Source: Hymenobacter cheonanensis (GTDB lineage: Bacteria; Bacteroidota; Bacteroidia; Cytophagales; Hymenobacteraceae). Taken from it: a stretch of DNA of 64,000 nt. The notes under the pieces were generated by a model. It saw only the letters and a program-made list of their open reading frames with translations, had not been told where the DNA came from and ran no database searches. Of the stretch, positions 9,478-42,226 are shown piece by piece (within the stretch, counting starts at the first letter, position 1; each line of letters starts with the position of its first letter). The stretch is taken from NCBI RefSeq assembly GCF_030581075.1, contig NZ_JAUQSW010000003.1, forward strand, positions 248,001 to 312,000, in the 5' to 3' direction. The translations under genes were made by a program, and so were the position numbers.

Positions 9478-10159
9478 TTGCTATAAGCCTTCCGCTTCTA
9501 AAATACTTGGTCACCTATAAATGGACACTAATAAAGGAAATAAGAGCCGCTGGGGTAAACAGCTTTTGTAGAGTGTAGTAGGAGTTATCGATATGAATTT
9601 CTGGTACTTGTATGGGCTTGGGAGTGCAGACAAGGCGCATTCAGGCCTGTTCGGGCCATTCGCCAATGAGTAAGCCACCGATTAGAAGGGCAGTGTGCTG
9701 GCGCAAGGCCATCTCGCCTAATGCACGCGGCACGATGCGGCCATCCAAGGTGGTGAAGTCACGCTCAGCCGACGAGGCCGCATACTCAGCTGGCAAAGGG
9801 CTGGGGTATGCAAGCGGCTGCCGGGCTATGAAAGAGCTTTTCATAATAGCTAGGAAAAACAGTAGCAGATAAAAAGGATATGGCGTAGTGGGGTGAACGT
9901 AGATTCTGTTACAAGATTACGGGGCGACTTGAGCCTGCAAAAGGACAAATGACCTGTTTTTGTGACATTGAAGTTTTTGCGTTTTTGTAGGAAAAAAGAC
10001 TAATTGATACTTTGAAAAAGCATATTTTTGAAAGAAATAAAATTATTTTTAAAGTCAGAATTTTGATAATGAGCATTATAGGAGGTACGTCATTTTTTGT
10101 GAAAAATTCAATGCATCTAAATTTGTGACAATTGCGGCCTGAAATGTGCGCTTTAAGAC
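9478..10159. other. Gene-poor stretch with an AT-rich island
   Basis: About 680 bp between the SDR terminator and the 3' end of the peptide-importer operon. The first 400 bp have ordinary composition and contain only the doubtful 67-codon ORF listed separately. From about 9880 to 10150 the sequence is far richer in A and T than anything else nearby. It holds two TGTGACA-containing motifs (9961 and 10125) and a 55-codon minus-strand frame (9909-10076) encoding a hydrophobic, Ile/Leu/Lys-rich peptide, which may be chance in such composition. I see no RNA gene. Confidence 0.5.
9641..9844 (-). CDS. Doubtful small ORF, possibly a gene remnant
   Basis: A 67-residue frame with an ATG start. I do not recognise it. 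The C-terminal part (LGEMALRQHTALLIGGLLIGEWPEQA) has a short hydrophobic patch and the codons look fairly normal for this genome. There is no promoter, neighbour or family pattern to support it, and an overlapping plus-strand frame of similar size exists. It may be a decayed fragment of a larger gene or a chance frame. Confidence 0.25.
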   Translation of the reverse strand: MKSSFIARQPLAYPSPLPAEYAASSAERDFTTLDGRIVPRALGEMALRQHTALLIGGLLIGEWPEQA

Positions 10160-11170
10160 TTAAAAATCCGGGCTTTTAGCCACAGATTTTGCCAGTTTCT
10201 GCAGCGCGAGCAGGGTGCAAAGCAGCGCCAGCCCGGGGGCGGCAGCTACCCACCAGGCTGCCGGGTCTTGGCGCACCGTTGCCAGAAGGCTACCCCAGCT
10301 CACAACCTCAGGCCCCTGGCCAATGCCGATAAAGGCCAGGGCGCTTTCGAGGCTAATCAGCCCGGCCAGGCTTAGGGGGGTATAAGCCAGCAGCGGGCGG
10401 CAGGCATGGGGCAGGGCGTGGCGCCACCAGATGCGGCTCATGGGCAGCCCGCTGGCCCGCGCTGCCTCTATAAAAGGCTGAACGCGCACTTGCAGCATCT
10501 GGCCGCGCACGAGGCGCGCCGTGCCGGGCCAGGCCAGCACCGCCAGCAGGGCCAGCAGCTGCAGCTGCGTAAGCGGCGGCCCCGCTGCCAGGGCCACCAG
10601 CAAAACGAGCCGGGGCACGGCCCCGAGCAAGGTGGTTGCCCCTAGCACCAGCGCATCCAGCGGGAGTGCAAAGGCGTAGTTGCGCAAGGCAGGCGCCAGG
10701 GGCGGCCACGTAGCCGCTATTGCGAGCAAAGCAGTAGCTATCAATAGGATAGATGCTATGGCGTGCCCCGGCAGCGCCAGCGCCCACCAGGCAATGCCCA
10801 GGGCCCCGGTGGCGGCAGCCAGCGGCAGGCGCAGGCGCTGATTGCCCCAGTAGCCGGCCGCCCCACCCGCCACTGCGCCAGCGGCCGTAGCCAGCAGCAC
10901 CGCCGGCAGGCTGAGGAGCAATAGCCGCTGGGCCCCGGCCACCAGGCCCGCCAGCACATCGCGCCCCAAGGGGTCGGTGCCGAGGTAATGGGCTGGGCCG
11001 ATAGGCGACCAGCTAGGCGGGGCCGATACCTGCAAGAGGTCGGGAGTGGCGGCGGAGTAGGGCAGGGGAAGCCAAGGCGCCACCACTCCCACCGCGCTCA
11101 CCAGCAGCAGCCAGGCCAAGGCTAGCCCCCCCAGCGGCTGCCTGCCAAAAAAAGGCCGAAAGTATCTCAT
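10160..11170 (-). CDS. Peptide ABC transporter permease, OppC/DppC type
   Basis: A 336-residue inner-membrane permease. After the first membrane span it has the OppC-type N-terminal signature HYLGTDPLGRDVLAGLVAGAQ at about residues 60-82. It also has several further spans and the EAA-loop region FIEAARASGLPMSRIWWRHALPHACRPLL (about residues 240-270), where the ATPase would dock, then SLAGLISLESALAFIGIG. The ATG overlaps the stop of the partner permease (ATGA). No ATPase (OppD/OppF) gene follows, so the energising subunits must be encoded elsewhere. The central region contains more Ala/Leu-rich spans than usual. Confidence 0.88.
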   Translation of the reverse strand: MRYFRPFFGRQPLGGLALAWLLLVSAVGVVAPWLPLPYSAATPDLLQVSAPPSWSPIGPAHYLGTDPLGRDVLAGLVAGAQRLLLLSLPAVLLATAAGAVAGGAAGYWGNQRLRLPLAAATGALGIAWWALALPGHAIASILLIATALLAIAATWPPLAPALRNYAFALPLDALVLGATTLLGAVPRLVLLVALAAGPPLTQLQLLALLAVLAWPGTARLVRGQMLQVRVQPFIEAARASGLPMSRIWWRHALPHACRPLLAYTPLSLAGLISLESALAFIGIGQGPEVVSWGSLLATVRQDPAAWWVAAAPGLALLCTLLALQKLAKSVAKSPDF

Positions 11171-12228
11171 GCAGAGGGCCGGAGGCGCGGGTCCGCCAAA
11201 AAGTAGAGGATATCGGTCAGCACCAGCCCTAGCAGGCGGGCCGCCGCACTCAGTAGCACGGCGGCTACTACCACCGGGTAATCGTGGGCAGCGGCTGCCT
11301 CGGCGAGCAGGCGCCCGCTGCCCGGCAGGCCAAATAATACCTCGACCACCACCGTGCCCGCCACCAGGGTGGGCAGCAGGTCGGCAAGGGTAGTAAGCAG
11401 GGGCAGCAGGGCATTGGGCAGCGCGTGGCGGCGCAGTACCTGCGCCGCCGTAAGCCCCTTGGCGCGGGCCGTAGTGGCATAGCCGGCCCGCACTTCATGG
11501 CGCAGCATGGCCACCAGCGGCAGCGTTAGCTCGGGCAGCACGGCTAGCACCAGGCTCAGCAGGGGCAGCACCGAGCGGGCTAGCCAGTAGCCGGCCAGGG
11601 TGGGGCCGCTGGCATTTGCAGGAGGCTGGCCACTGCCCGGCAGAATGTTTAAAAAATCGGGGTTGGCAAATAGCAGCAGCAGGCTGAGGGCCAGCAGAAA
11701 GAGCGGCATCACCTGCCAGCCCGCCAGCAGGCCGAGCAGGAGCCGCCGCAGCCTGCCCCCCGGGGCCTGGGCCAGGTATAGCCCCAGGCCCAGCGCCAGC
11801 CCAACAGCCACTACCGCCGCACTGCCCGCCAGCGGCAGGCTAAATGCCACGGCCTGCCACAGCATAGCGCCCACGGCCTGCCCATCGCGGTAAGAGTACC
11901 CCAGATTGCCATGCAGCAGGGCCATCACCCAGCGGTGGTACTGGTTAGCTGCGCCGTGCCATTGCCACCGCACCGGCGGGCCCGCCTCGCGCGTGACATA
12001 AAAAACGGGCATATCAAGCCCCAGCCGGTGGCGCACAACCTGCTGGGCGGCCTGCCGGGTGGCGGCCGAGCGCGCGCCCGCCGCTGGGCGGCTCAGGTCG
12101 GAAGAGTCGCCCAGGGCTAGCTGCTCGGGGCCGCCCCCCAGAAGCCGGCTACTGATAAAAACCAGCGAGGCAATCAGCCAGGCGGCTGCCACTGCCCGCC
12201 CCAGCCGGGCCAGGAGCCAGCGCATCAT
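11167..12228 (-). CDS. Peptide ABC transporter permease, OppB/DppB type
   Basis: A 353-residue permease partner of the OppC-type protein. The first span is MMRWLLARLGRAVAAAWLIASLVFISSRLLGG. The periplasmic loop contains the OppB-typical RHRLGLDMPVFYV, and ALLHGNLGYSYRDGQAV leads into the core domain. The EAA loop is RAGYATTARAKGLTAAQVLRRHALPNALLPLLT, followed by the GTVVVEVLFGLPGSGRLL signature of the family. I start at the ATG at 12228, 2 bp after the stop of the substrate-binding protein gene. The frame is open further upstream inside that gene, but this is not a credible start. Confidence 0.9.
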   Translation of the reverse strand: MMRWLLARLGRAVAAAWLIASLVFISSRLLGGGPEQLALGDSSDLSRPAAGARSAATRQAAQQVVRHRLGLDMPVFYVTREAGPPVRWQWHGAANQYHRWVMALLHGNLGYSYRDGQAVGAMLWQAVAFSLPLAGSAAVVAVGLALGLGLYLAQAPGGRLRRLLLGLLAGWQVMPLFLLALSLLLLFANPDFLNILPGSGQPPANASGPTLAGYWLARSVLPLLSLVLAVLPELTLPLVAMLRHEVRAGYATTARAKGLTAAQVLRRHALPNALLPLLTTLADLLPTLVAGTVVVEVLFGLPGSGRLLAEAAAAHDYPVVVAAVLLSAAARLLGLVLTDILYFLADPRLRPSA

Positions 12229-12230
12229 GG

Positions 12231-13970
12231 CTAGGGCCGGCCCGCCGGCGCGGGGGGCGTAGTGGGCCACGAAAGCGCCATGGCCGCGTAGCCCGGCTTG
12301 ATGCCCGAAGCCACTACGTGCTGCAGCCGGCGACTGGCCGCCAGGCGATAGGGCAGAAAAAACAGGGGCATTATCGGCATTTCGTCGCGCAGCATCACCT
12401 GAAAGCGGCGGAGCAGCCGCCGCTTCCGGCCCAGGTTGCCTTCGGTCGAGATGGCCGTGAGCAGCCGGTCGGTATCGGCACGGCCAAAGCGCGGGAAATT
12501 ACCCGTGCCGATGGCATCGGTATGCAGAATGGGCGCGAAGTTGACGCCAAACGGCGTGCCTTTTACCAGGCGGATATACAAGTCAAAATCGCCCGATTCG
12601 AGGCAGGTAGTCACCACTGAGTTTTCCGATGGCAGCAGCGTTATGGCAATGCCTAGCTGCGCGGCGGCCGCGCGCAGCTGCAGCCCCACAGTGGCAAAAG
12701 TGGTTTCTTCGGCCCGGTAGCGCACGGTTAGAGCCAGCGGCGCGCCGCCGGGCTGCCGCCACTGGCCGTCGGCGCCGCGCTGCCAGCCCGCCTGGCGCAG
12801 CAAAGCCCCGGCCTGGGCAGGGGCGTAGGTCGGCAGCGGCAGGCTGTCGTTGTAAAAGGGGCTGCCGGGGGCTAGCAGGCCCACCGTGCGGCTGCCCTGG
12901 CCAAGCTGCGTTGCGGCCATAAGCCCGGCGGGGTCGAGTAAGCGGCTCAGCGCCTGGCGGGTGCGCTTGTCGCGCAGGGCCGGCCGCTGTGTGTTAAACC
13001 CCACCGACAGGATATCATACGACGGGGTGGTGTAGAACACAAAATCCTGCTGGGCGGTAGCGGAAGCTTGCAGCTGCCGAAAAATACGGGCCGGCACCTG
13101 CGGATAAATATCCAGCTCGTGCCGCCGCAACGCCAGGGCCGCCGCCGCGTCATCCGGCAAAATAGAATATACCAGCTCGCGGGGGTGCGCCTGCAGCACA
13201 AACGGCGTGGGCTGCACCTTATCGCCCCACCACTGTTTTTTGCGCTGAAAGCGCAGCTGGCGATTGGTTTCCCAGGCCGCCAAGCGGTAGGCGCCGCAGC
13301 CCGGAATATTGTTGGGGTGGCGGGCCGCATTGGCCTGCTGGTAGCGCCGCACCAGTGCGGCTACCGCGGGCGCGGGCGGGCGGCCGGCCGGCCAGTCTTG
13401 CAGCGTGGCCAGCGAAAAGCTTCGTAGCGTATGGCCGGGGTCGAGGCTAGCCTCGGGCAGCACCGAAAAATCACCCGAAGTGGTAAGAATTTCCTGCCCC
13501 TGGCTGCGGCACAGCAGCGAAAAGCGCCGCGGATTGGCCGGGTCGATGCGCACCTGGCGAATAAAGCCAAACTGCGCCCGGCTGTTTTCGTTGGGCAGCC
13601 CCGGGCACTGCATCAGCTTGAGGGTGAAATCAACGTCGGTGGCCAGTACGGGCTGGCCGGAATCCCAGGCAGCTACTGCGCGCAGCTCATAATCGAGCAG
13701 GGCCAGCGAATCGCCGAGCCAGTGCGCGCGCGGCAAAGCCTGGGCTAGCGCAGGGGCGTAGGCATTGCGCTGATAATCAATCTGTAGAAGCGCTAAATGA
13801 AGTAAATTATTGGCATCAACGGCATTTTGGTTAGGAAGGGCTAGCGGGTCGAGCGTCTCGGGGTCACGGGCCCAGCGCGTGCGAACCGAAGCAAAACCTT
13901 CAGGAGCAGGAGTCGTCGAACAAGCGCTAGTTAATAGCGCAAGCAGGCTACCAAGCCAAAAATATCTCAT
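12231..13970 (-). CDS. Peptide ABC transporter substrate-binding lipoprotein (family 5)
   Basis: A 579-residue SBP_bac_5-type protein that would capture peptides in the periplasm for the two permeases downstream. The lipobox is LLTSACS (Cys17), giving a membrane-anchored lipoprotein. The N-terminus VRTRWARDPETLDPLALPNQNAVDANNLLHLAL matches the start of the family, and the middle region FVFYTTPSYDILSVGFNTQRPALRDKRTRQALSRLLDP is the conserved hinge/ligand segment. It is followed with almost no gap by oppB- and oppC-type genes. A short hairpin precedes its ATG, and the repeat-peptide gene ends 89 bp upstream on the same strand. Confidence 0.9.
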   Translation of the reverse strand: MRYFWLGSLLALLTSACSTTPAPEGFASVRTRWARDPETLDPLALPNQNAVDANNLLHLALLQIDYQRNAYAPALAQALPRAHWLGDSLALLDYELRAVAAWDSGQPVLATDVDFTLKLMQCPGLPNENSRAQFGFIRQVRIDPANPRRFSLLCRSQGQEILTTSGDFSVLPEASLDPGHTLRSFSLATLQDWPAGRPPAPAVAALVRRYQQANAARHPNNIPGCGAYRLAAWETNRQLRFQRKKQWWGDKVQPTPFVLQAHPRELVYSILPDDAAAALALRRHELDIYPQVPARIFRQLQASATAQQDFVFYTTPSYDILSVGFNTQRPALRDKRTRQALSRLLDPAGLMAATQLGQGSRTVGLLAPGSPFYNDSLPLPTYAPAQAGALLRQAGWQRGADGQWRQPGGAPLALTVRYRAEETTFATVGLQLRAAAAQLGIAITLLPSENSVVTTCLESGDFDLYIRLVKGTPFGVNFAPILHTDAIGTGNFPRFGRADTDRLLTAISTEGNLGRKRRLLRRFQVMLRDEMPIMPLFFLPYRLAASRRLQHVVASGIKPGYAAMALSWPTTPPAPAGRP

Positions 13971-13975
13971 CTACT

Positions 13976-13997
13976 GACGACAGCAAAAAATGTCGTC
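13976..13997 (-). promoter_or_regulatory. Hairpin just upstream of the substrate-binding protein start codon
   Basis: GACGACA (13976-13982) pairs with TGTCGTC (13991-13997) around an eight-base loop. The hairpin ends 5 bp before the ATG of the binding-protein gene. A second small hairpin (CCAGC/GCTGG, 14015-14034) lies between it and the repeat-peptide stop. Either could lower translation of the transporter genes relative to the peptide gene, but that is inference. Confidence 0.35.
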
Positions 13998-14059
13998 GGC
14001 AAGTTAGGCAAGCACCAGCTATTGTTATTGCTGGCAGTCGGGCTTAGCCGAGGCCTACG

Positions 14060-14452
14060 CTAGGCAATAATAGCCACGTCGCCGCCACCCCAGCCCGAGC
14101 CACCTACGGCTGCCACGTCACCACCGCCCCAGCCTGAACCACCTACAGCCGCCACATCACCACCGCCCCAGCCCGAGCCACCTACAGCCGCTACGTCGCC
14201 GCCGCCCCAGCCCGAGCCGCCCACAGCCGCTACGTCGCCGCCACCCCAGCCCGAGCCACCTACGGCTGCCACGTCGCCGCCACCCCAGCCCGAGCCGCCT
14301 ACGGCTGCCACGTCGCCGCCACCCCAGCCCGAGCCGCCTACGGCCGCCACGTCACCACCACCCCAGCCCGAGCCGCCTACGGCTGCAGTAGAAGAAGAGT
14401 GGGTAGCGAAGCTGAAAACCTGAAAGAGGGCGATAGTGAGAACCTGAAACAT
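14060..14452 (-). CDS. Exported peptide with eight identical 13-residue Gly/Trp repeats
   Basis: A 130-residue protein that I do not recognise. Residues 1-22 (MFQVLTIALFQVFSFATHSSST) look like a short export or leader segment. Residues 23-126 are eight perfect copies of a 13-residue unit containing AVGGSGWGGGDVA, and the end is AIIA. The copies differ in DNA, and every difference I see is at a third codon position, so the peptide sequence is kept while the DNA drifts. I start at the ATG at 14452; a TTG lies 12 codons upstream. It is on the same strand as, and 89 bp before, the peptide-importer genes. It could be a multicopy peptide precursor, a surface adhesin, or a low-complexity protein. 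Confidence 0.6.
   Translation of the reverse strand: MFQVLTIALFQVFSFATHSSSTAAVGGSGWGGGDVAAVGGSGWGGGDVAAVGGSGWGGGDVAAVGGSGWGGGDVAAVGGSGWGGGDVAAVGGSGWGGGDVAAVGGSGWGGGDVAAVGGSGWGGGDVAIIA
14073..14384. repeat. Eight tandem 39-bp repeats
   Basis: Eight contiguous 39-bp units that differ from one another by a few substitutions and no indels. In the minus-strand reading frame all substitutions are synonymous. The opposite strand also stays open through the block (14064-14423, ATSPPPQPEPPTA units) but contains no start codon, so the minus strand is the likely coding strand. Confidence 0.95.
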
Positions 14453-14816
14453 GACGGGGTTGATTGTTAGAGTGAATTGTTGATACAAATCTCCTCTAGG
14501 TGCTCAGCCCTCAAAAGGAAAGAGGCAGCCTGCCTGTGACAAGGACTAATCCAAGTGCGAAATGGATTAATTAAGGATGGGTGAAGAAAAGAAAGCGCTA
14601 CTGGTTGCTTGCTAGTCGATACTCCTAAGGGAGTAGTGCGAAAAAAAAAGCGAAATGTGACATCGTACCGTATAAATTGCACGCACTACTCCAAGATGCA
14701 AAGGTTGGGCAAGCTAACAGTTGATACAAGGATAATGAGCCAGTTTTTGTACGAGCATTTTGAAGTAGGTATGTTGGTAAAAAAATGGCTTTAAACGCTC
14801 CTGAGGCACTTTTTTG
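14453..14816. promoter_or_regulatory. Divergent intergenic region between repeat peptide and helical-repeat protein
   Basis: 364 bp between two divergent starts, which should hold both promoters. It contains TGTGACA motifs at 14535 and 14656 (a third, TGTGACATTG, is at 14846 just inside the downstream gene), an AGGCAGCCTGCCT near-palindrome, and a TAATCC/GGATTA inverted pair near 14555-14577. A run of nine or ten As begins at about 14640. I see no unambiguous TAnnTTTG box. The boundaries are simply the two start codons. Confidence 0.4.
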
Positions 14817-16325
14817 ATGAAAGAAATTGCAAATTTGGCGCGAATTGTGACATTGCGCCGGATGCGCCAGCGTTCGCTGCTTGACCTTGATGCCACGCGC
14901 CTGGGTAAGGAGGAGCGCCTGATGCAAGAGATAGCCATAAACCCTGAAGTGACTGCTTTACAGCTTACTAAATCACTTTACGGTACAAACTCGACCAGCA
15001 ACCAAGCCGCGATGCGCCAGCTGCGCGCCCGGGTGCAGGACAAGCTGCTGAATCACTTATTTTTTCTAGACCATTCGGACCCGCGCCTGCTGGTGTCGCG
15101 TCGCTATGAGATTGAATGCCTGAACTTACTGCATAAAGCGACCATTTTATACCTGGAAGGCGAATACTCGCTGAGCGAGCGCCTGTTGCGGCGCTGCATA
15201 CGGGCTGCTGAACAGGGAGATTTTACCACTTATGAGGAGCAGGCCTCCCAAAAGCTGCGGGCTATTTATGCCGAGCAGCGCCAGCAGAGCAAGTTTGATA
15301 AGCTAGGGGAGGAGTTGGTAAGGCTGCGCCAGGTAATTGAGTATGAGCGCGAAGCAGAAAAAATATTTTTCGACGTGCAGCTAGGGGCAGAAGACGCAGT
15401 AGCCAAACGCCACGAAATAGTAACCAAGCTACCTGCTTACCTAAAGCGGCTCGAAGAATTACACCAGGCGGCGGGCACCTTCGGGACATTTATTGCGCTG
15501 TACCGGGTGCGTTTGATTGAAGCGGGGCTAGCCGGGCACTACCAGGAAATAATTCTGCAAACGCAGCGGGCCTCGGCCCAGCTGGCGGCGGGCACCATCA
15601 ATGCCCGGCGGTTCGACCAGCGTTTCAATCACTTCATGAATGTGTACGCGCATTTGCGCGGCCGCCGCCCGGTAGAGGGCCTGAAGCTGGCCGAGGCGTT
15701 TGCCGAAACCATTCACCCCACGTCCAGCAACTGGTTTTATTTCTACGAGCACTACCTGCTGCTGGCCCTGCACGCGGGCGAATACGAGCAGGCCATGCGC
15801 CTACTGCACATGGCCCACAAAAACCCTTCGTATGGCAAGCTGCGCCCGGCTGCCCTTGAGCGCTGGGAGCTATTGGAGGCCTATACCGAGCTGGTGCTGC
15901 CTAGCGAGCAGGTGCTGCCGCGCCGGCGCAATCAACTGGCCGTGTTTGCGGCACTCACGGTGCCCGAATACAGCCGCGACAAGCGGGGCCATAACGTAGC
16001 TATTCTGATATTTCAGTTGGTGCACTACCTGCAAGAGCGGCTGCTGGAGCCCGTGCTGGTGCGGCTGGAACGCCTGCGCAAGTACCAGCAGCGCCACCTG
16101 CGCGACGCGGCCACGCTGCGCAGCCGCACGTTTTTGCGACTGCTGCTGCTGCTGCCCGAGGCCGACTTCGACCCCGCCAAGCTAGCCCAGCGTGGCCAGC
16201 CGCTGCTACGCACGCTGCAGCAGGCTACCCTAACGCGGGATGCCGACGCGGAAGTGGAGATTATACCCTACGAAAACCTTTGGCTGCTGATAATGAGAAT
16301 ATTATCGCAAGGCACGCCTCAGTAA
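14817..16325 (+). CDS. Helical-repeat (TPR-like) cytosolic protein of unknown function
   Basis: A 502-residue protein with no signal peptide or membrane segment. The first 100 residues hold a compact region (LARIVTLRRMRQRSLLDLDATRLGKEERL, then LQLTKSLYGTNSTSNQAAMRQLRARVQDKLL) that could be a winged-helix-like DNA-binding or docking domain. Residues 105-490 are almost entirely amphipathic helices in pairs, with ALHAGEYEQAMRLLHMAHKNPSYGK closest to a tetratricopeptide pattern. I cannot name the family. It starts at the ATG at 14817 (the frame opens one codon earlier at a TTG). It is divergent from the repeat-peptide gene, an arrangement often seen for a regulator and its target. Confidence 0.75.
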   Translation: MKEIANLARIVTLRRMRQRSLLDLDATRLGKEERLMQEIAINPEVTALQLTKSLYGTNSTSNQAAMRQLRARVQDKLLNHLFFLDHSDPRLLVSRRYEIECLNLLHKATILYLEGEYSLSERLLRRCIRAAEQGDFTTYEEQASQKLRAIYAEQRQQSKFDKLGEELVRLRQVIEYEREAEKIFFDVQLGAEDAVAKRHEIVTKLPAYLKRLEELHQAAGTFGTFIALYRVRLIEAGLAGHYQEIILQTQRASAQLAAGTINARRFDQRFNHFMNVYAHLRGRRPVEGLKLAEAFAETIHPTSSNWFYFYEHYLLLALHAGEYEQAMRLLHMAHKNPSYGKLRPAALERWELLEAYTELVLPSEQVLPRRRNQLAVFAALTVPEYSRDKRGHNVAILIFQLVHYLQERLLEPVLVRLERLRKYQQRHLRDAATLRSRTFLRLLLLLPEADFDPAKLAQRGQPLLRTLQQATLTRDADAEVEIIPYENLWLLIMRILSQGTPQ

Positions 16326-17007: not shown

Positions 17008-17766
17008 CTACAGCTTGTTGAGGCGCTGAAGCAGGCCGCGCATGTACGTTTGGCCGATGGGGATATACTTCTCCTTTAGCAGCAAGGAGTTGTCTTCCAG
17101 CGCTTGCACGTAGTCGATGTTAATGATGAACGAGCGGTGCACCCGCACGAAGCGCTGCGGCGGGAATTTCTCCTCAATGGCCCGCATGGTGCTGTACACG
17201 ATGAGCTTGCTGCGGCTCGTAACGAGGTGCACGTAGTCGCCGAGGGCCTCAACGTAAAACACGTCGGCAAAATCGACGCGCACCAGCTTGTTGTCTACCT
17301 TCACGAAGGTGAACTCGGCACTGCTTGCGGGCACTAGGCCGTCGAATTCGGATGGGGCCGTGCGCTGGGTCGTAATGGTTTCCAGCACCTTTTGGGCGGC
17401 CTGCAAAAAGCGTGGGTACGATAACGGCTTGAGCAGATAGTCGGCCACGGCAAACTCGAAAGCCTGCACGGCATACGACCGGCTGCTGGTGATGAGCACT
17501 ACCTGCGGCGGGTTGGGCAGGCTGCGCAGTAGGTCGAGGCCCGACATAATGGGCATTTCTACATCCAGAAACAACACATCGAACTCCTGAGTGCGCAGCA
17601 TTTCGGCGGCCTCAATGGCGCTGCCGCACGCCGCGGCTGCGGCCAGAAAGGGGGTATTACCGATGCAGGTGCGTACGATTTGTACTGACATGGGGTCGTC
17701 GTCGACCACAAGGCAGCGTAGCGGCGTAGTGATAGTAGGGCTGAGTTCAGGAGTAGAATAAGGCAT
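17008..17766 (-). CDS. LytTR-family response regulator
   Basis: A 252-residue response regulator. The receiver domain (residues about 17-135) has the acidic pocket VDDDP at 21-25, phospho-acceptor Asp68 in VLFLDVEMPIMSG, the Thr/Ser switch VVLITSS, and the conserved Lys in YLLKPL. The LytTR DNA-binding domain (about 155-252) has the typical FVKVDNKLVRVDFADVFYVEALGDYVHL and FVRVHRSFIINIDYVQ. It lies next to the giant hybrid sensor, but that protein carries its own receiver and Hpt domains, so the pairing is only suggested by position. A LytS-type kinase could equally be elsewhere. Confidence 0.93.
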   Translation of the reverse strand: MPYSTPELSPTITTPLRCLVVDDDPMSVQIVRTCIGNTPFLAAAAACGSAIEAAEMLRTQEFDVLFLDVEMPIMSGLDLLRSLPNPPQVVLITSSRSYAVQAFEFAVADYLLKPLSYPRFLQAAQKVLETITTQRTAPSEFDGLVPASSAEFTFVKVDNKLVRVDFADVFYVEALGDYVHLVTSRSKLIVYSTMRAIEEKFPPQRFVRVHRSFIINIDYVQALEDNSLLLKEKYIPIGQTYMRGLLQRLNKL

Positions 17767-17893
17767 AGCGTAACGTTAAAATACAAGTAAGTAGTCCAGG
17801 CAAATGTAGGGCTTAGGCAGACAATAAAGCATGGGTATTTTCTGAAATGACGGCTAAATAATGTGAGCGATAGGTTGGCGCTAGCCGGATGCC

Positions 17894-20800
17894 TCAGGCC
17901 CGCTCCTGCAACTGCGGGTAAAGCTGGCTAAGCTGCTGCTGCACAGTCTGCAACAAGGGTTCGCAGTAGGGGCAGCCGGGCAGGCGCGCGCTACGCTCCA
18001 GCTCGTCGAGCTGGGCGTGCAGGCCGGGCACGCCAAAGTAGGCCACCTGCCCCTTTAGCTTGTGGGCCGTGGCAGCCACCGTGGGCGGGTCGTGGGGGTA
18101 GGCGGCGGCCAGCACCTGCTCCAGGGCCGGGGCTTCGGTGAGGAAGGTGTTAACAATCTGGCTGATGAAGCCGGCATTGCCGCCGGCCAGCTCTTCCAGC
18201 TGCTGCCAGCTGGGGTGCAGCCCCGGGGGCTTGCTGGGGGGCGGCGGGGCGGCCGGGGCGGGCGCGGGGCGGCCGGGCGCCGCCTCGGCCGCCAGCCGGC
18301 CCGTGAAGTGGGCTAGCCGGGCATAGAGCGCGGCCGGCTCGAAGGGCTTGGCCAGAATGTCGTTCATGCCGGCGGCCAGGGCCAGGCTGCGGTCTTCGGG
18401 CAGCACCGAGGCCGTGAGGCCGATAATGGGCAGCTGGGCCAGGTCGGGGTGGTGCTGGCGCAGGGCGCGGGTGGCGGCGTAGCCATCCAGCTCGGGCATC
18501 TGCACATCCATAAGCACGGCGTCGAAGGGCGCGGGGGCAGCTAGCACCTGCTCCACGGCCAGGCGGCCGTTGTCGGCAATGGTGACGTGCACATTCCACT
18601 TTTCCAGGGTTTTACGCACTACCAGTTGGTTGAGGCTATTGTCTTCGGCCACGAGCACGCGCAGGGCTGGCTCGAAGGGCGGCAGCGGGCCGGCCAGGGC
18701 GCCGGGGCTGGCCTGGCTGGCCTCGGCCACGGGGTAAGTAAGCTCGAAGGCAAACGTGGAGCCCACGCCTTCTGCGCTGCGCACGCCCAGTTGGCCGCCG
18801 TGCAGCTGCACCAGGTTGCGGGCAATGCTCAGGCCCAGGCCCGTGCCGCCAAACTCGCGGGTGGTGCTGGCATTGGCCTGCGAAAAATCTTCGAAAATGG
18901 CCGCCAGCTTGTTGTTCGGAATGCCGATGCCCGTGTCCTGCACCTCGAAGCGCAGCGCCACGTGGCCGGGCGCAGCGGCCGGGCCCGGGGCTAGCCCCAG
19001 GCGCACCGATACGCCGCCCTGGCGGGTGAATTTGAGGGCGTTGCTGACGAGGTTGACGAGTACCTGCTGCAGGCGCACGGGGTCGCCCAGCACGGCCTCG
19101 GGCACGCCCTCGGCCACGTCTACGCGCAGGCTTAGGCCCTTGCTATCGGCGGCGTAGCGAAACAGCGTGCTGAGCCCGCGCACGGCCTCGGGCAGCCGGA
19201 AGGCCACCTGCTCAAGCGTCAGCTTGCCCGCCTCCATCTTCGACGAGTCGAGGATGTCGTTGAGAATAACCAGCAAATTTTGCGAAGAGGAGCCGATGGC
19301 CGTGAGGTACTCGTGCTGCTCGGTAGTAGTAGGCGTGTGCTGCAGCAGATTGGTAAGACCAATAACGGCATTCATGGGCGTACGGATTTCGTGGCTCATG
19401 TTGGCCAGAAACTGGGCCTTGGCCCGGCGCGAGGCTTCGGCCGCATCGCGGGCCACCAGCAGCTCGGCGTTGATGTGCTCAATGGCGTGGTTTTTCTGGC
19501 GCAGCTCGCTCGTGCGCTCGCGCACCGTGTGCTCGAGCTGCAGCTTCTGGCGGCGCAGCACGCGCTCGCGGGCGCTCACTACTACCACTACCAGCGCCAC
19601 CACCGCCCCCAGGGCCAGGGCCAGGGCCAGCGGCGTGCGCCACCACGGCGTGGCAATGCCAAAGGTGCACCGGGCCGCCGGCCCCCAGGCGGCGCCCGGC
19701 GCGGTGCGGCGCACCTGCGCCTCCAGCACATACTGGCCGGGGCCGAGGCCCACCAGCTGCGCCTCGCCCAGCGCGCTGGGGTGGCTCCACTCGTCGGCCA
19801 GGCCCCGCAGGCGGTAGCGGTACTGCAGGCCCCCCGCGCCCCCCGGCGCCAGGCTAATGCCCTGGAAGGTAAAGCGGATGCGGTGCGGCCCGGCCGGCAG
19901 CTCGCCCAGCGCGCCCAGCCGGCTTTCGCCATCCACCTCTACCCCGCCGATGGCTAGGGGCGGCGCGGGGGCATGGCCGGGCCGCAGGCGGGCCAGGGTG
20001 GCCAGGTCGAGGCGCAGCTGGCCGGTGCGGGTGCCTACCCAGGCCACGCCCGCGGCCAAGGCCGTAGTAGGCAGGTTGCCCTGGGCCAGCAGGTCGTCGG
20101 GGGCCGTGAGGGGCATGGCTACGTGGCGGTTATCGAGCAGGCTCAGGCCCTGGGGGTGCACCAGCAGCAGGGTGCCGGCCAGCGGCGCGGGCAGGGGCAG
20201 CAGGGCCGTGAGGAAGTCGTTGGGCAGGGTGCCGCTGGCTTTGCCGAGATGCTGCCAGCGGCCGCTGGCCGGCCGGCAGTACAGGCCCTGGCCCTCGGTG
20301 CCCACCCAGATAGTGCCGGCCGCATCTTCGGCCAGGGCGCTGGCGTCGAGGCCAACGGCATTCAGCTTGAGGTAGCTGAAATGCTGCCGCGCCGGCTCCC
20401 AGATGGCTAGCCCCGTGTTGTGGCCGCCCACCCACACGCGGCCAGTATGGTCGGCCAGCAACGCTGTGATGCTGTTGTGCAGCAGACCATTGGCAGTGGT
20501 GAAGTGCTGCACGGCGGGCTGGGGGCTAGCCGGCGACTTATCGGGCAGCAGGTACACGCCATCGGCCGCCGTGCCCACCCACAGGCCCGCGCCCGGCGCG
20601 TAGGCCAGCGCCGTCACGGCCGAGCCCAGGCTTTGGGTAAGGCCCGGAATTGACTGGAATGGCTGGCCTGGTGCAGGCACGGCGTGTACACCGGCCATCG
20701 CAGTGCCGACCCAAAAACCGCCACCCTGGCCTACGGGGCGGGCTAGTAGAGCGGTCGCCGATTCGCCTGGTGGGGGTGGCTGGCGCCAATTGCCGACCAT

Positions 20801-21508
20801 AACCGCCGGGCCCGCATTCCGAAACTGGTAGTAGGGCGAGCCAGTAAAAGTGGCCCACGCTGCCCTTTGCCAGCTCGCTAAAGCAAGGGGCACGCCAGCC
20901 GGGCCCGCGAGCTTGGGCCACAGGCTCAGAAAGCGGTCGGCGTGCAGCCAGAGGCCCTGGCCGGCGGTGCCAAGCCAGGCGTTGCCCTCGCGGTCTTCGA
21001 GCAGGCAGGTGGGCACCACCTCGGGGGGCAGCGCCAGGTGGTAGCGGCGCTGGTAGGCGCCGAGGCGGGCGGTATCGGGCGCAACGGCCCCCAAACGGCC
21101 AGGCGGCGGGCCGCCGGGCAGGCTAGCGGAAGCTGGACGAAAGCCTTGGTTAGCAGCCAGCTGCACCGAGCGGCTGCCCTGGGCGTGGGTGGCCCACAGG
21201 GCCCCGCTGGCGGGGTCTTGCCAGAGGCCGGTTACGAAGTTGTCGGCTAGCCCGTCGCGGGTGGTCAGGGTCACGAAGCGGCTGCCGTCGTAGCGCACCA
21301 GGCCCTCGGCGGTGCCCAGCCAGAGGTAGCCCTGGCGGTCTTGCAGCAGGCAGTAGATAAAGGGCTGGGCTAGCCCCTCGGCCGGCCCAAACTGCCGCAC
21401 AAAGGCCTGCGGCCCCGGGGCGGCGTGCCCCGGCCGTAGCCCCAGCAGCAGGGCCACTACTAAAAGCCCGCCCCAGCGGCGCAGCCCAGAAATAATACAA
21501 GAAAACAC
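17894..21508 (-). CDS. Hybrid two-component sensor kinase with beta-propeller sensor, receiver and Hpt domains
   Basis: A 1204-residue one-protein phosphorelay. After an N-terminal leader, residues about 35-530 carry two-component-regulator propeller repeats (GYLWLGTAEGLVRYDG, GTIWVGTEGQGLY). A Y_Y_Y domain follows (YRYRLRGLADEWSH), then a transmembrane helix near 630 (TPLALALALGAVVALVVVVVS) and a coiled coil. HisKA has His706 in FLANMSHEIRTPMNAVIG. The ATPase has NLVSNALKFT, DTGIGIP and GGTGLGLSI. The receiver has Asp1001 in VLMDVQMPELDG, and the Hpt domain has His1149 in AATAHKLKGQVAYFG. Similar proteins sense polysaccharides, but no polysaccharide-utilisation genes are adjacent. The start is a GTG; no in-frame ATG is near. 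Confidence 0.93.
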   Translation of the reverse strand: MFSCIISGLRRWGGLLVVALLLGLRPGHAAPGPQAFVRQFGPAEGLAQPFIYCLLQDRQGYLWLGTAEGLVRYDGSRFVTLTTRDGLADNFVTGLWQDPASGALWATHAQGSRSVQLAANQGFRPASASLPGGPPPGRLGAVAPDTARLGAYQRRYHLALPPEVVPTCLLEDREGNAWLGTAGQGLWLHADRFLSLWPKLAGPAGVPLALASWQRAAWATFTGSPYYQFRNAGPAVMVGNWRQPPPPGESATALLARPVGQGGGFWVGTAMAGVHAVPAPGQPFQSIPGLTQSLGSAVTALAYAPGAGLWVGTAADGVYLLPDKSPASPQPAVQHFTTANGLLHNSITALLADHTGRVWVGGHNTGLAIWEPARQHFSYLKLNAVGLDASALAEDAAGTIWVGTEGQGLYCRPASGRWQHLGKASGTLPNDFLTALLPLPAPLAGTLLLVHPQGLSLLDNRHVAMPLTAPDDLLAQGNLPTTALAAGVAWVGTRTGQLRLDLATLARLRPGHAPAPPLAIGGVEVDGESRLGALGELPAGPHRIRFTFQGISLAPGGAGGLQYRYRLRGLADEWSHPSALGEAQLVGLGPGQYVLEAQVRRTAPGAAWGPAARCTFGIATPWWRTPLALALALGAVVALVVVVVSARERVLRRQKLQLEHTVRERTSELRQKNHAIEHINAELLVARDAAEASRRAKAQFLANMSHEIRTPMNAVIGLTNLLQHTPTTTEQHEYLTAIGSSSQNLLVILNDILDSSKMEAGKLTLEQVAFRLPEAVRGLSTLFRYAADSKGLSLRVDVAEGVPEAVLGDPVRLQQVLVNLVSNALKFTRQGGVSVRLGLAPGPAAAPGHVALRFEVQDTGIGIPNNKLAAIFEDFSQANASTTREFGGTGLGLSIARNLVQLHGGQLGVRSAEGVGSTFAFELTYPVAEASQASPGALAGPLPPFEPALRVLVAEDNSLNQLVVRKTLEKWNVHVTIADNGRLAVEQVLAAPAPFDAVLMDVQMPELDGYAATRALRQHHPDLAQLPIIGLTASVLPEDRSLALAAGMNDILAKPFEPAALYARLAHFTGRLAAEAAPGRPAPAPAAPPPPSKPPGLHPSWQQLEELAGGNAGFISQIVNTFLTEAPALEQVLAAAYPHDPPTVAATAHKLKGQVAYFGVPGLHAQLDELERSARLPGCPYCEPLLQTVQQQLSQLYPQLQERA

Positions 21509-31527: not shown

Positions 31528-31953
31528 CTACTGAAGCTTAGCTAGTATCAAGTCAAGCTTACCGTCCATTGCTTGTTGCATCTGCTTGATGCCAACCATG
31601 TCCGATTTTAACTCGGCCACGTCGGTCTTTAGGCCAACCACATCCGATTTTAACTCGGCTACATCGGTTTTCAGGCCAGCCACGTCAGTTTTCAGGCCGG
31701 CTACGTCGGTTCTCAGGCCAGCTACGTCGGTTCTCAGGCCAGCTACGTCCAGCTTCAGCTCGGCTATGTCAGCCTTGATGACAATGTGTTCGCGCAGCAG
31801 AAAAGCGATGTTATCGCTTTGTTGAACGGCGATGGTAGTCAGCTGGCCAACAGCGTTGGTCAGTTGCTTAAGCTGGGCCGTATGGCGGTCCAGAATCGTC
31901 ATTGCTTCCGAAAGCAAGGGCTCAAGTTGGTCGAGGCGCTGGTCAGCAGTCAT
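31528..31953 (-). CDS. Heptad-repeat coiled-coil protein
   Basis: A 141-residue protein dominated by coiled coil. The N-terminal half (MTADQRLDQLEPLLSEAM through QQSDNIAFLLREHIVIKAD) is helical. Residues about 70-125 are heptads of the type AGLKTDV, AGLRTDV, AELKSDV repeated at least eight times, encoded by near-identical 21-bp DNA repeats. No enzyme motif is visible and no membrane segment is present. Proteins of this kind are common in Hymenobacter and vary in heptad number. The role is unknown, perhaps a scaffold. I start at the ATG at 31953; the frame also opens at a GTG seven codons earlier. Confidence 0.75.
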   Translation of the reverse strand: MTADQRLDQLEPLLSEAMTILDRHTAQLKQLTNAVGQLTTIAVQQSDNIAFLLREHIVIKADIAELKLDVAGLRTDVAGLRTDVAGLKTDVAGLKTDVAELKSDVVGLKTDVAELKSDMVGIKQMQQAMDGKLDLILAKLQ

Positions 31954-42016: not shown

Positions 42017-42226
42017 GGTCGTGGCAACGGCCGTGCTGGTCGCTACAACGACCAACATGGCCGTTGCAATGACCTTTCCAGTCGTGGCAACGACCAACAC
42101 GGCCGTTGCAATGACCTTTCCAGTCGCCACAACGACCAATATGGCCGTTGCCACGACCCAATCAGTCGTGGCAACCACCCAAACGGCCGTTGCCGCGACT
42201 GATTGGGTCGTGACAACGGCCGTTTG
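42017..42226. repeat. Array of ten 21-bp units, each with a 16-bp palindromic core
   Basis: Ten contiguous 21-bp units (starts at 42017, 42038, 42059 and so on to 42206), with an eleventh degenerate unit running into the stop codon of the next gene. The consensus core GGTCGTTGCAACGACC is its own reverse complement, and each core is followed by a five-base variable spacer. There are no long unique spacers, so this is not CRISPR. Short open frames through it (for example 42008-42202, heptads such as RGNDQHG) follow from the 21-bp period. The array fills the space between recX and the convergent gene. Confidence 0.95.

Follow-up and report, generated by a model that had tools for sequence, protein, structure and literature searches.

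A conserved gene block of Hymenobacter, in which a peptide precursor gene and an oligopeptide importer face a gene for an all-helical protein (HEL), probably forms a peptide-signalling circuit that works like the RRNPP systems of Gram-positive bacteria. In such a circuit the precursor, in which a conserved hydrophobic leader precedes a single Trp core or several, would leave the cell and be processed to a peptide some ten residues long, which the neighbouring importer, a solute-binding protein (SBP) with OppB and OppC, would take back up. Inside the cell the re-imported peptide would bind to HEL, a predicted cytoplasmic helical protein resembling Rap, NprR and AimR, with HEL, or a partner that binds the DNA, then controlling the peptide-importer operon and some unlinked genes via a conserved DNA element. 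The chances are also better than even that HEL represents the Bacteroidota's own family of cytoplasmic peptide-pheromone receptors, each paired with its Trp-core peptide and served by a dedicated re-importer, and that this family extends across the Hymenobacteraceae and beyond them into other families of the order. The original prediction of an analogous Bacteroidetes circuit is thereby supported, drawing on the co-occurrence of SBP and HEL, the paired precursors and the Rap/NprR-like predicted fold.

The window, the whole stretch of 64,000 nucleotides of Hymenobacter cheonanensis DNA that was analysed, carries the block as set out in Table 1. The arrangement first described for it, with eight identical 13-residue units behind a hydrophobic leader, 89 bp between the precursor stop and the start of the SBP on the same strand, two OppB/OppC-type permeases, a divergent 502-aa helical protein and no adjoining ATPase gene, was borne out by the coordinates and the Pfam matches. 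The 67-aa gene at 9641-9844, the DNA element and the conservation of the block go beyond that first description. Comparison of the eight units revealed third-base variation in 11 of the 13 codons and none at the 26 first and second bases, such that the copies differ only synonymously, which points to selection on the peptide; a chance repeat or coding artefact was set aside on the same grounds. An alternative precursor start, TTG at 14488, falls within the promoter-like element in front of the gene and the ATG was favoured for this reason. Elsewhere in the window tandem repeats are present at 31591-31749 (21/42-bp period) and 42020-42218 (84-bp period), perhaps coding repeats, and beyond HEL on the minus strand (17008-21508) lie a LytTR response regulator and a 1204-aa ORF resembling, by eye, a hybrid sensor kinase.

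Table 1. Features of the block and of the associated DNA element in the window.
Feature	Position	Strand	Details
67-aa small protein	9641..9844	-	No Pfam match; behind imperfect element copy
Second copy of the GTCAC-N15-TCCTTT part of the element	9940..9966	-	1 mismatch; before 67-aa gene; TTTG part imperfect
OppC-type permease	10160..11170	-	BPD_transp_1 E 1.4e-17
OppB-type permease	11167..12270	-	BPD_transp_1 E 2.5e-25
SBP, family 5 solute-binding lipoprotein	12231..13970	-	SBP_bac_5 E 3.7e-40; lipobox LTSAC read by eye
Peptide precursor gene	14060..14452	-	130 aa from ATG 14452, stop 14060; MFQVLTIALFQVFSFA as hydrophobic leader, then a short linker and eight identical units
Array of 8 x 39 bp	14072..14383	-	Unit AVGGSGWGGGDVA; predicted core about VGGSGWGGGD
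Conserved promoter/operator-like element	14486..14540	-	GTCAC-N15-TTCCTTT-N24-TTTG; in front of precursor
HEL, all-helical, predicted peptide receptor/regulator	14817..16325	+	502 aa; TTG one codon upstream gives 503 aa

The block is conserved across the genus as a unit. A HEL match was found in 112 of 120 Hymenobacter genomes and an SBP match likewise in 112, the eight genomes lacking SBP being exactly those lacking HEL (seven listed as at least 99% complete and one as 82%). In loci taken from all 112 genomes, where a few precursors run off the contig end, 113 of 118 HEL genes were faced by a precursor that is divergent from HEL and combines a hydrophobic leader with one Trp core or more. The five unpaired HELs are extra copies in genomes with a paired one, so that every one of the 112 genomes has a HEL-precursor pair and the importer is not kept without the peptide gene, the opposite of the outcome named with the original prediction as refuting it. 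Among the best 80 of 471 relatives, drawn largely from the same genomes, 78 were paired with a precursor and the two misses were extra copies. The full order, HEL followed by SBP-OppB-OppC, was present in 104 of the 115 longer loci, a count that excludes L063 and L073-L076 (beforehand) and L002-L031, in which the 1.5-kb flanks are too short; the remaining 11 either stop at a contig end, involve an extra HEL copy or are rearranged. In view of the co-occurrence and the conserved gene order, the idea that the importer is a bystander was set aside.

Elsewhere in the family a precursor was found at 27 of 38 HEL genes, including one (L070) identified by eye and counted by hand, with the 11 HELs lacking a precursor consisting of one second locus (L061) and ten members of tandem HEL groups. 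In genus g2 of the family (L175, L166, L168, L169, L174, L176, L068 and L072) tandem HEL genes (two, or four in L175) lie behind one precursor-importer operon, and the further HEL copies are without a peptide gene of their own. At L093 and L102 a single SBP gene lies between two HEL genes, with no permease in the stretch examined and only one of the two HELs having a precursor. The block reaches another family, in which L065 has the full set with the core CAIGWDDND and L063 has HEL and precursor with no adjoining SBP. At 24 more distant HEL loci (L073-L076 and L294-L313), a search for ORFs that begin with ATG, are divergent from HEL, encode 30-130 aa and start with a hydrophobic stretch found one at seven loci, of which four were kept as leads (L294, L298, L302 and L311); the ORFs at L296 and L305 were set aside as lying more than 700 bp away and that at L301 as lying 18 bp from the HEL frame. 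The HEL relatives at the four lead loci come from further families of the order; L302 has SBP-OppB-OppC on the opposite side of HEL, and L298 and L311 have divergent short ORFs ending in GEGW and EDGW; with TTWPVA also among the C-termini of the four, these are possibly further peptide codes.

The peptide itself appears to be a short core centred on Trp. In 77 precursors with at least three Trp, agreement between copies was at least 0.96 from W-5 to W+2, 0.88 at W+3 and 0.83 at W+4, falling just outside to a span of 0.44-0.67 (0.61 at W-6, 0.49 at W-7 and 0.67 at W+5). This drop marks VGGSGWGGGD as the likely mature core in the window. Around the last Trp of 141 precursors Gly occupied W-4 in 139 and W-1 in 114, with 116 different 8-residue contexts, so that the core is a fixed frame of near-invariant Gly and Trp carrying species-specific letters. 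At locus L250 (H. roseosalivarius), for instance, the predicted core is GGSSGWNDGN. The leader is hydrophobic yet does not look like a textbook Sec signal: Lys or Arg occurs within residues 2-8 in only 3 of 141 leaders, and Asn or Gln is present within positions 9-13 in 135 of 141. Leader scores leave a gap between accepted precursors (at least 6.1) and the best rejected (4.0). Precursors of the same loci served as seeds for the leader profile, so that leader likeness alone is circular; a Trp core was required as well.

The number of Trp per Hymenobacter precursor ranges from 1 to 20, with a single Trp in 25 of 113, and in the rest of the family 24 of 26 scored precursors carry a single Trp after the leader and two, both from genus g5, carry three. 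The products in these other genera are 49-78 aa long, most of them terminating close to the core, as in ...GYGGSGTWDTRD, ...GTGGTGTWDDSN and ...IGGNGWGETH. The multicopy peptide gene that first drew attention to the locus is real in the window, but the array was set aside as an essential feature because other genera mostly carry one core.

Alignment of the HEL-precursor spacers brought out a pattern of rigid spacing in front of the precursor, GT(C/T)A(C/T)-N15-(G/T)TCCTTT-N24-TTTG. A narrower pattern with T only matched 76 of 139 regions and the final pattern takes K at this position, admitting the G-for-T variant. The exact pattern had 124 matches in 86 of the 120 Hymenobacter genomes, with the reversed control pattern having none in any of the 120 and the eight block-less genomes having none where the distal rate would predict about three. 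Sorted by distance, 55 sites lie at the precursor, 14 lie less than 200 bp from the HEL start and point to the precursor, 13 exact sites are on the importer side at 3.5-9 kb from HEL and 42 lie elsewhere. As the pattern was derived from precursor promoters the 55 precursor matches are circular, the other matches not. Of four far importer-side sites that were read, three (L186, L195 and L204, not L182) have a small protein downstream. Some distal sites precede proteins with N-termini that look export-like by eye (L177, L188, L194 and L196) and others (L203 and L208) look like coding sequence. Either HEL or some other regulator may use the element as its operator. The small protein behind those three sites corresponds to the 67-aa protein of the window, and relatives of it encoded beyond OppC were found in at least 63 of the 105 loci with OppC, some of the stretches ending early, and this protein is likely a sixth member of the block. 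Its relatives share a conserved C-terminal motif, roughly T.DG....A...A...G.A.L(I/V)GG.LVG.

With respect to the ATPase, both oligo_HPY matches in the genome from which the window derives belong to a single fused OppDF gene located on a different contig, a one-gene state read in this genome only. Two oligo_HPY matches each were found in 119 of the 120 Hymenobacter genomes, including all eight without the block, the one genome lacking them being an 81% complete assembly. The simple reading is that one shared ATPase would serve several permeases.

HEL proteins are 472-520 aa long, with invariant residues that include N305, W306, E311, H319 and Y356. The suggestion that the helical protein might have a TPR-type peptide groove would fit the fold ranking of its predicted model, made without peptide, in which the Rap and NprR peptide receptors rank highest, with NprR level with LGN and AimR also among the top rows; sequence identity to these RRNPP rows is 7-11%. 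Foldseek without realignment placed no RRNPP proteins among the 50 matches listed, and chains of Rgg, ComR, PlcR and PrgX were not among the 50 matches listed in the fold ranking, which is not evidence of their absence. A profile of 50 HELs against PDB sequences found no RRNPP relative, the sole match at E <= 5 being a designed protein (E 0.019). In the absence of a detectable sequence relationship to Rap, Rgg, NprR, PlcR, PrgX or AimR, HEL is described as working like an RRNPP receptor rather than as a member of that family. The HEL of the window matches TPR_14 below cut-off, and across 50 HELs TPR_12 was matched by seven and TPR_MalT by one (E 2.4e-5). A weak match of HEL to a PHP domain, below cut-off at E 0.006, is shared by 1 of 50 members and was discounted.

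Within the signalling reading, it is possible, on the doubtful side of even, that HEL acts in the manner of Rap on another protein rather than on DNA and that the element belongs to a partner. NprR and AimR bind DNA, while Rap has no N-terminal HTH. In keeping with a Rap-like action the top four rows of the fold ranking are all Rap, and no HTH family is common to 50 HELs, a weak HTH_RNase_II match being found in one. Against it, NprR and AimR are also among the top fold rows, and residues 1-90 of HEL are more basic than the remainder in 139 of 162 proteins and contain three helices (31-41, 47-55 and 60-83) that are compatible with an HTH but no proof of one.

Other explanations would dispense with signalling. 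The layout of a leader and repeated cores resembles that of multi-core RiPP and bacteriocin precursors and the cores diversify between species, such that the product could be a secreted antimicrobial or RiPP-like peptide, with the importer and HEL providing self-protection or control of production. This is unlikely given that no peptide-modifying enzyme, protease or exporter was found among the nine window proteins scanned round the gene, that a conserved importer beside the peptide fits re-uptake better than immunity and that the folds ranked highest for the HEL model are pheromone receptors. A scavenging ligand, metallophore-like or nutritional, returned with its cargo by SBP-OppBC under the regulation of HEL would account for the best NCBIfam match of the SBP, nickel_nikA (E 5.6e-25), a further match to CntA (E 1e-10) and the His and Asp in some cores. 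The nikA match reaches 87.8 bits against a cut-off of 393, the core in the window is without His or Cys and the near-invariant features are Gly and Trp, which are not metal ligands, making this reading distinctly improbable. Gly-rich tandem repeats such as those of the array are common in surface proteins, and the gene could thus encode an intact surface or matrix protein with unrelated neighbours, a very remote prospect when the short products of other genera have a similar leader with a single core near the C-terminus and adjoin the same HEL and importer.

A signalling circuit remains the preferred reading. Two surveys (PMC9765709, PMC10075063) describe export-import peptide circuits with helical receptors from Firmicutes and from the plasmids and phages of these bacteria, and for Bacteroidota acyl-cyclolysines are named as signals in a 2026 review (PMC13419125); the latter is chemical signalling in the same phylum by a small molecule as opposed to a gene-encoded peptide. 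Among the matches listed in a search of open-licence papers there was no description of this system or of peptide quorum sensing in Hymenobacter or the Cytophagales. If true, the same circuit logic would operate genus- and family-wide in a Gram-negative phylum, the solution having arisen or spread more widely, with gene-encoded peptide quorum sensing across two membranes, peptide codes that are specific to the species and a single DNA element marking the regulon. It would then have to be explained how a short peptide gets across both membranes. Candidate peptides, receptor and operator are named above, and more than 100 natural receptor-peptide pairs would be on hand for specificity studies.

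RRNPP systems are defined, in one account, by a propeptide of 10-100 aa, Sec export (SHP and PrgQ, exported by PptAB and not Sec, being exceptions), a receptor of about 250-500 aa with peptide-binding TPRs, and adjacent genes (PMC10075063). Here precursors are at most 100 aa in 105 of the 136 complete cases (range 41-297), HELs are at most 500 aa in 36 of 162, and the two genes adjoin in the 113 Hymenobacter pairs noted above (of 118 HEL genes). As in Rap-Phr and NprR-NprX, whose receptors head the fold ranking of the HEL model with no sequence relationship detected, a small peptide gene lies beside a gene for a predicted cytoplasmic helical receptor (TPR in Bacillus); peptide uptake there is by Opp, whereas here the genes of a putative importer form part of the block. 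For AimR, NprR, PlcR and Rap, propeptides are reported in which an identical unit occurs up to six times (PMC9765709), compared with up to 20 Trp in one precursor here. The present system differs from Rap-Phr and NprR-NprX in belonging to a Gram-negative phylum, in the N-terminal region of HEL, which lacks a recognised fold, and in a leader mostly without a positively charged start. Compared with the AimR-AimP arbitrium system of Bacillus phages the block is genus-wide, has a divergent gene order and includes the importer. In the Rgg-SHP and ComR-XIP systems of Streptococcus the precursors are short and hydrophobic and the active peptide, in some cases containing Trp, lies at the C-terminus, a layout seen likewise here, whereas the cores of the present precursors are Gly-rich and hydrophilic.
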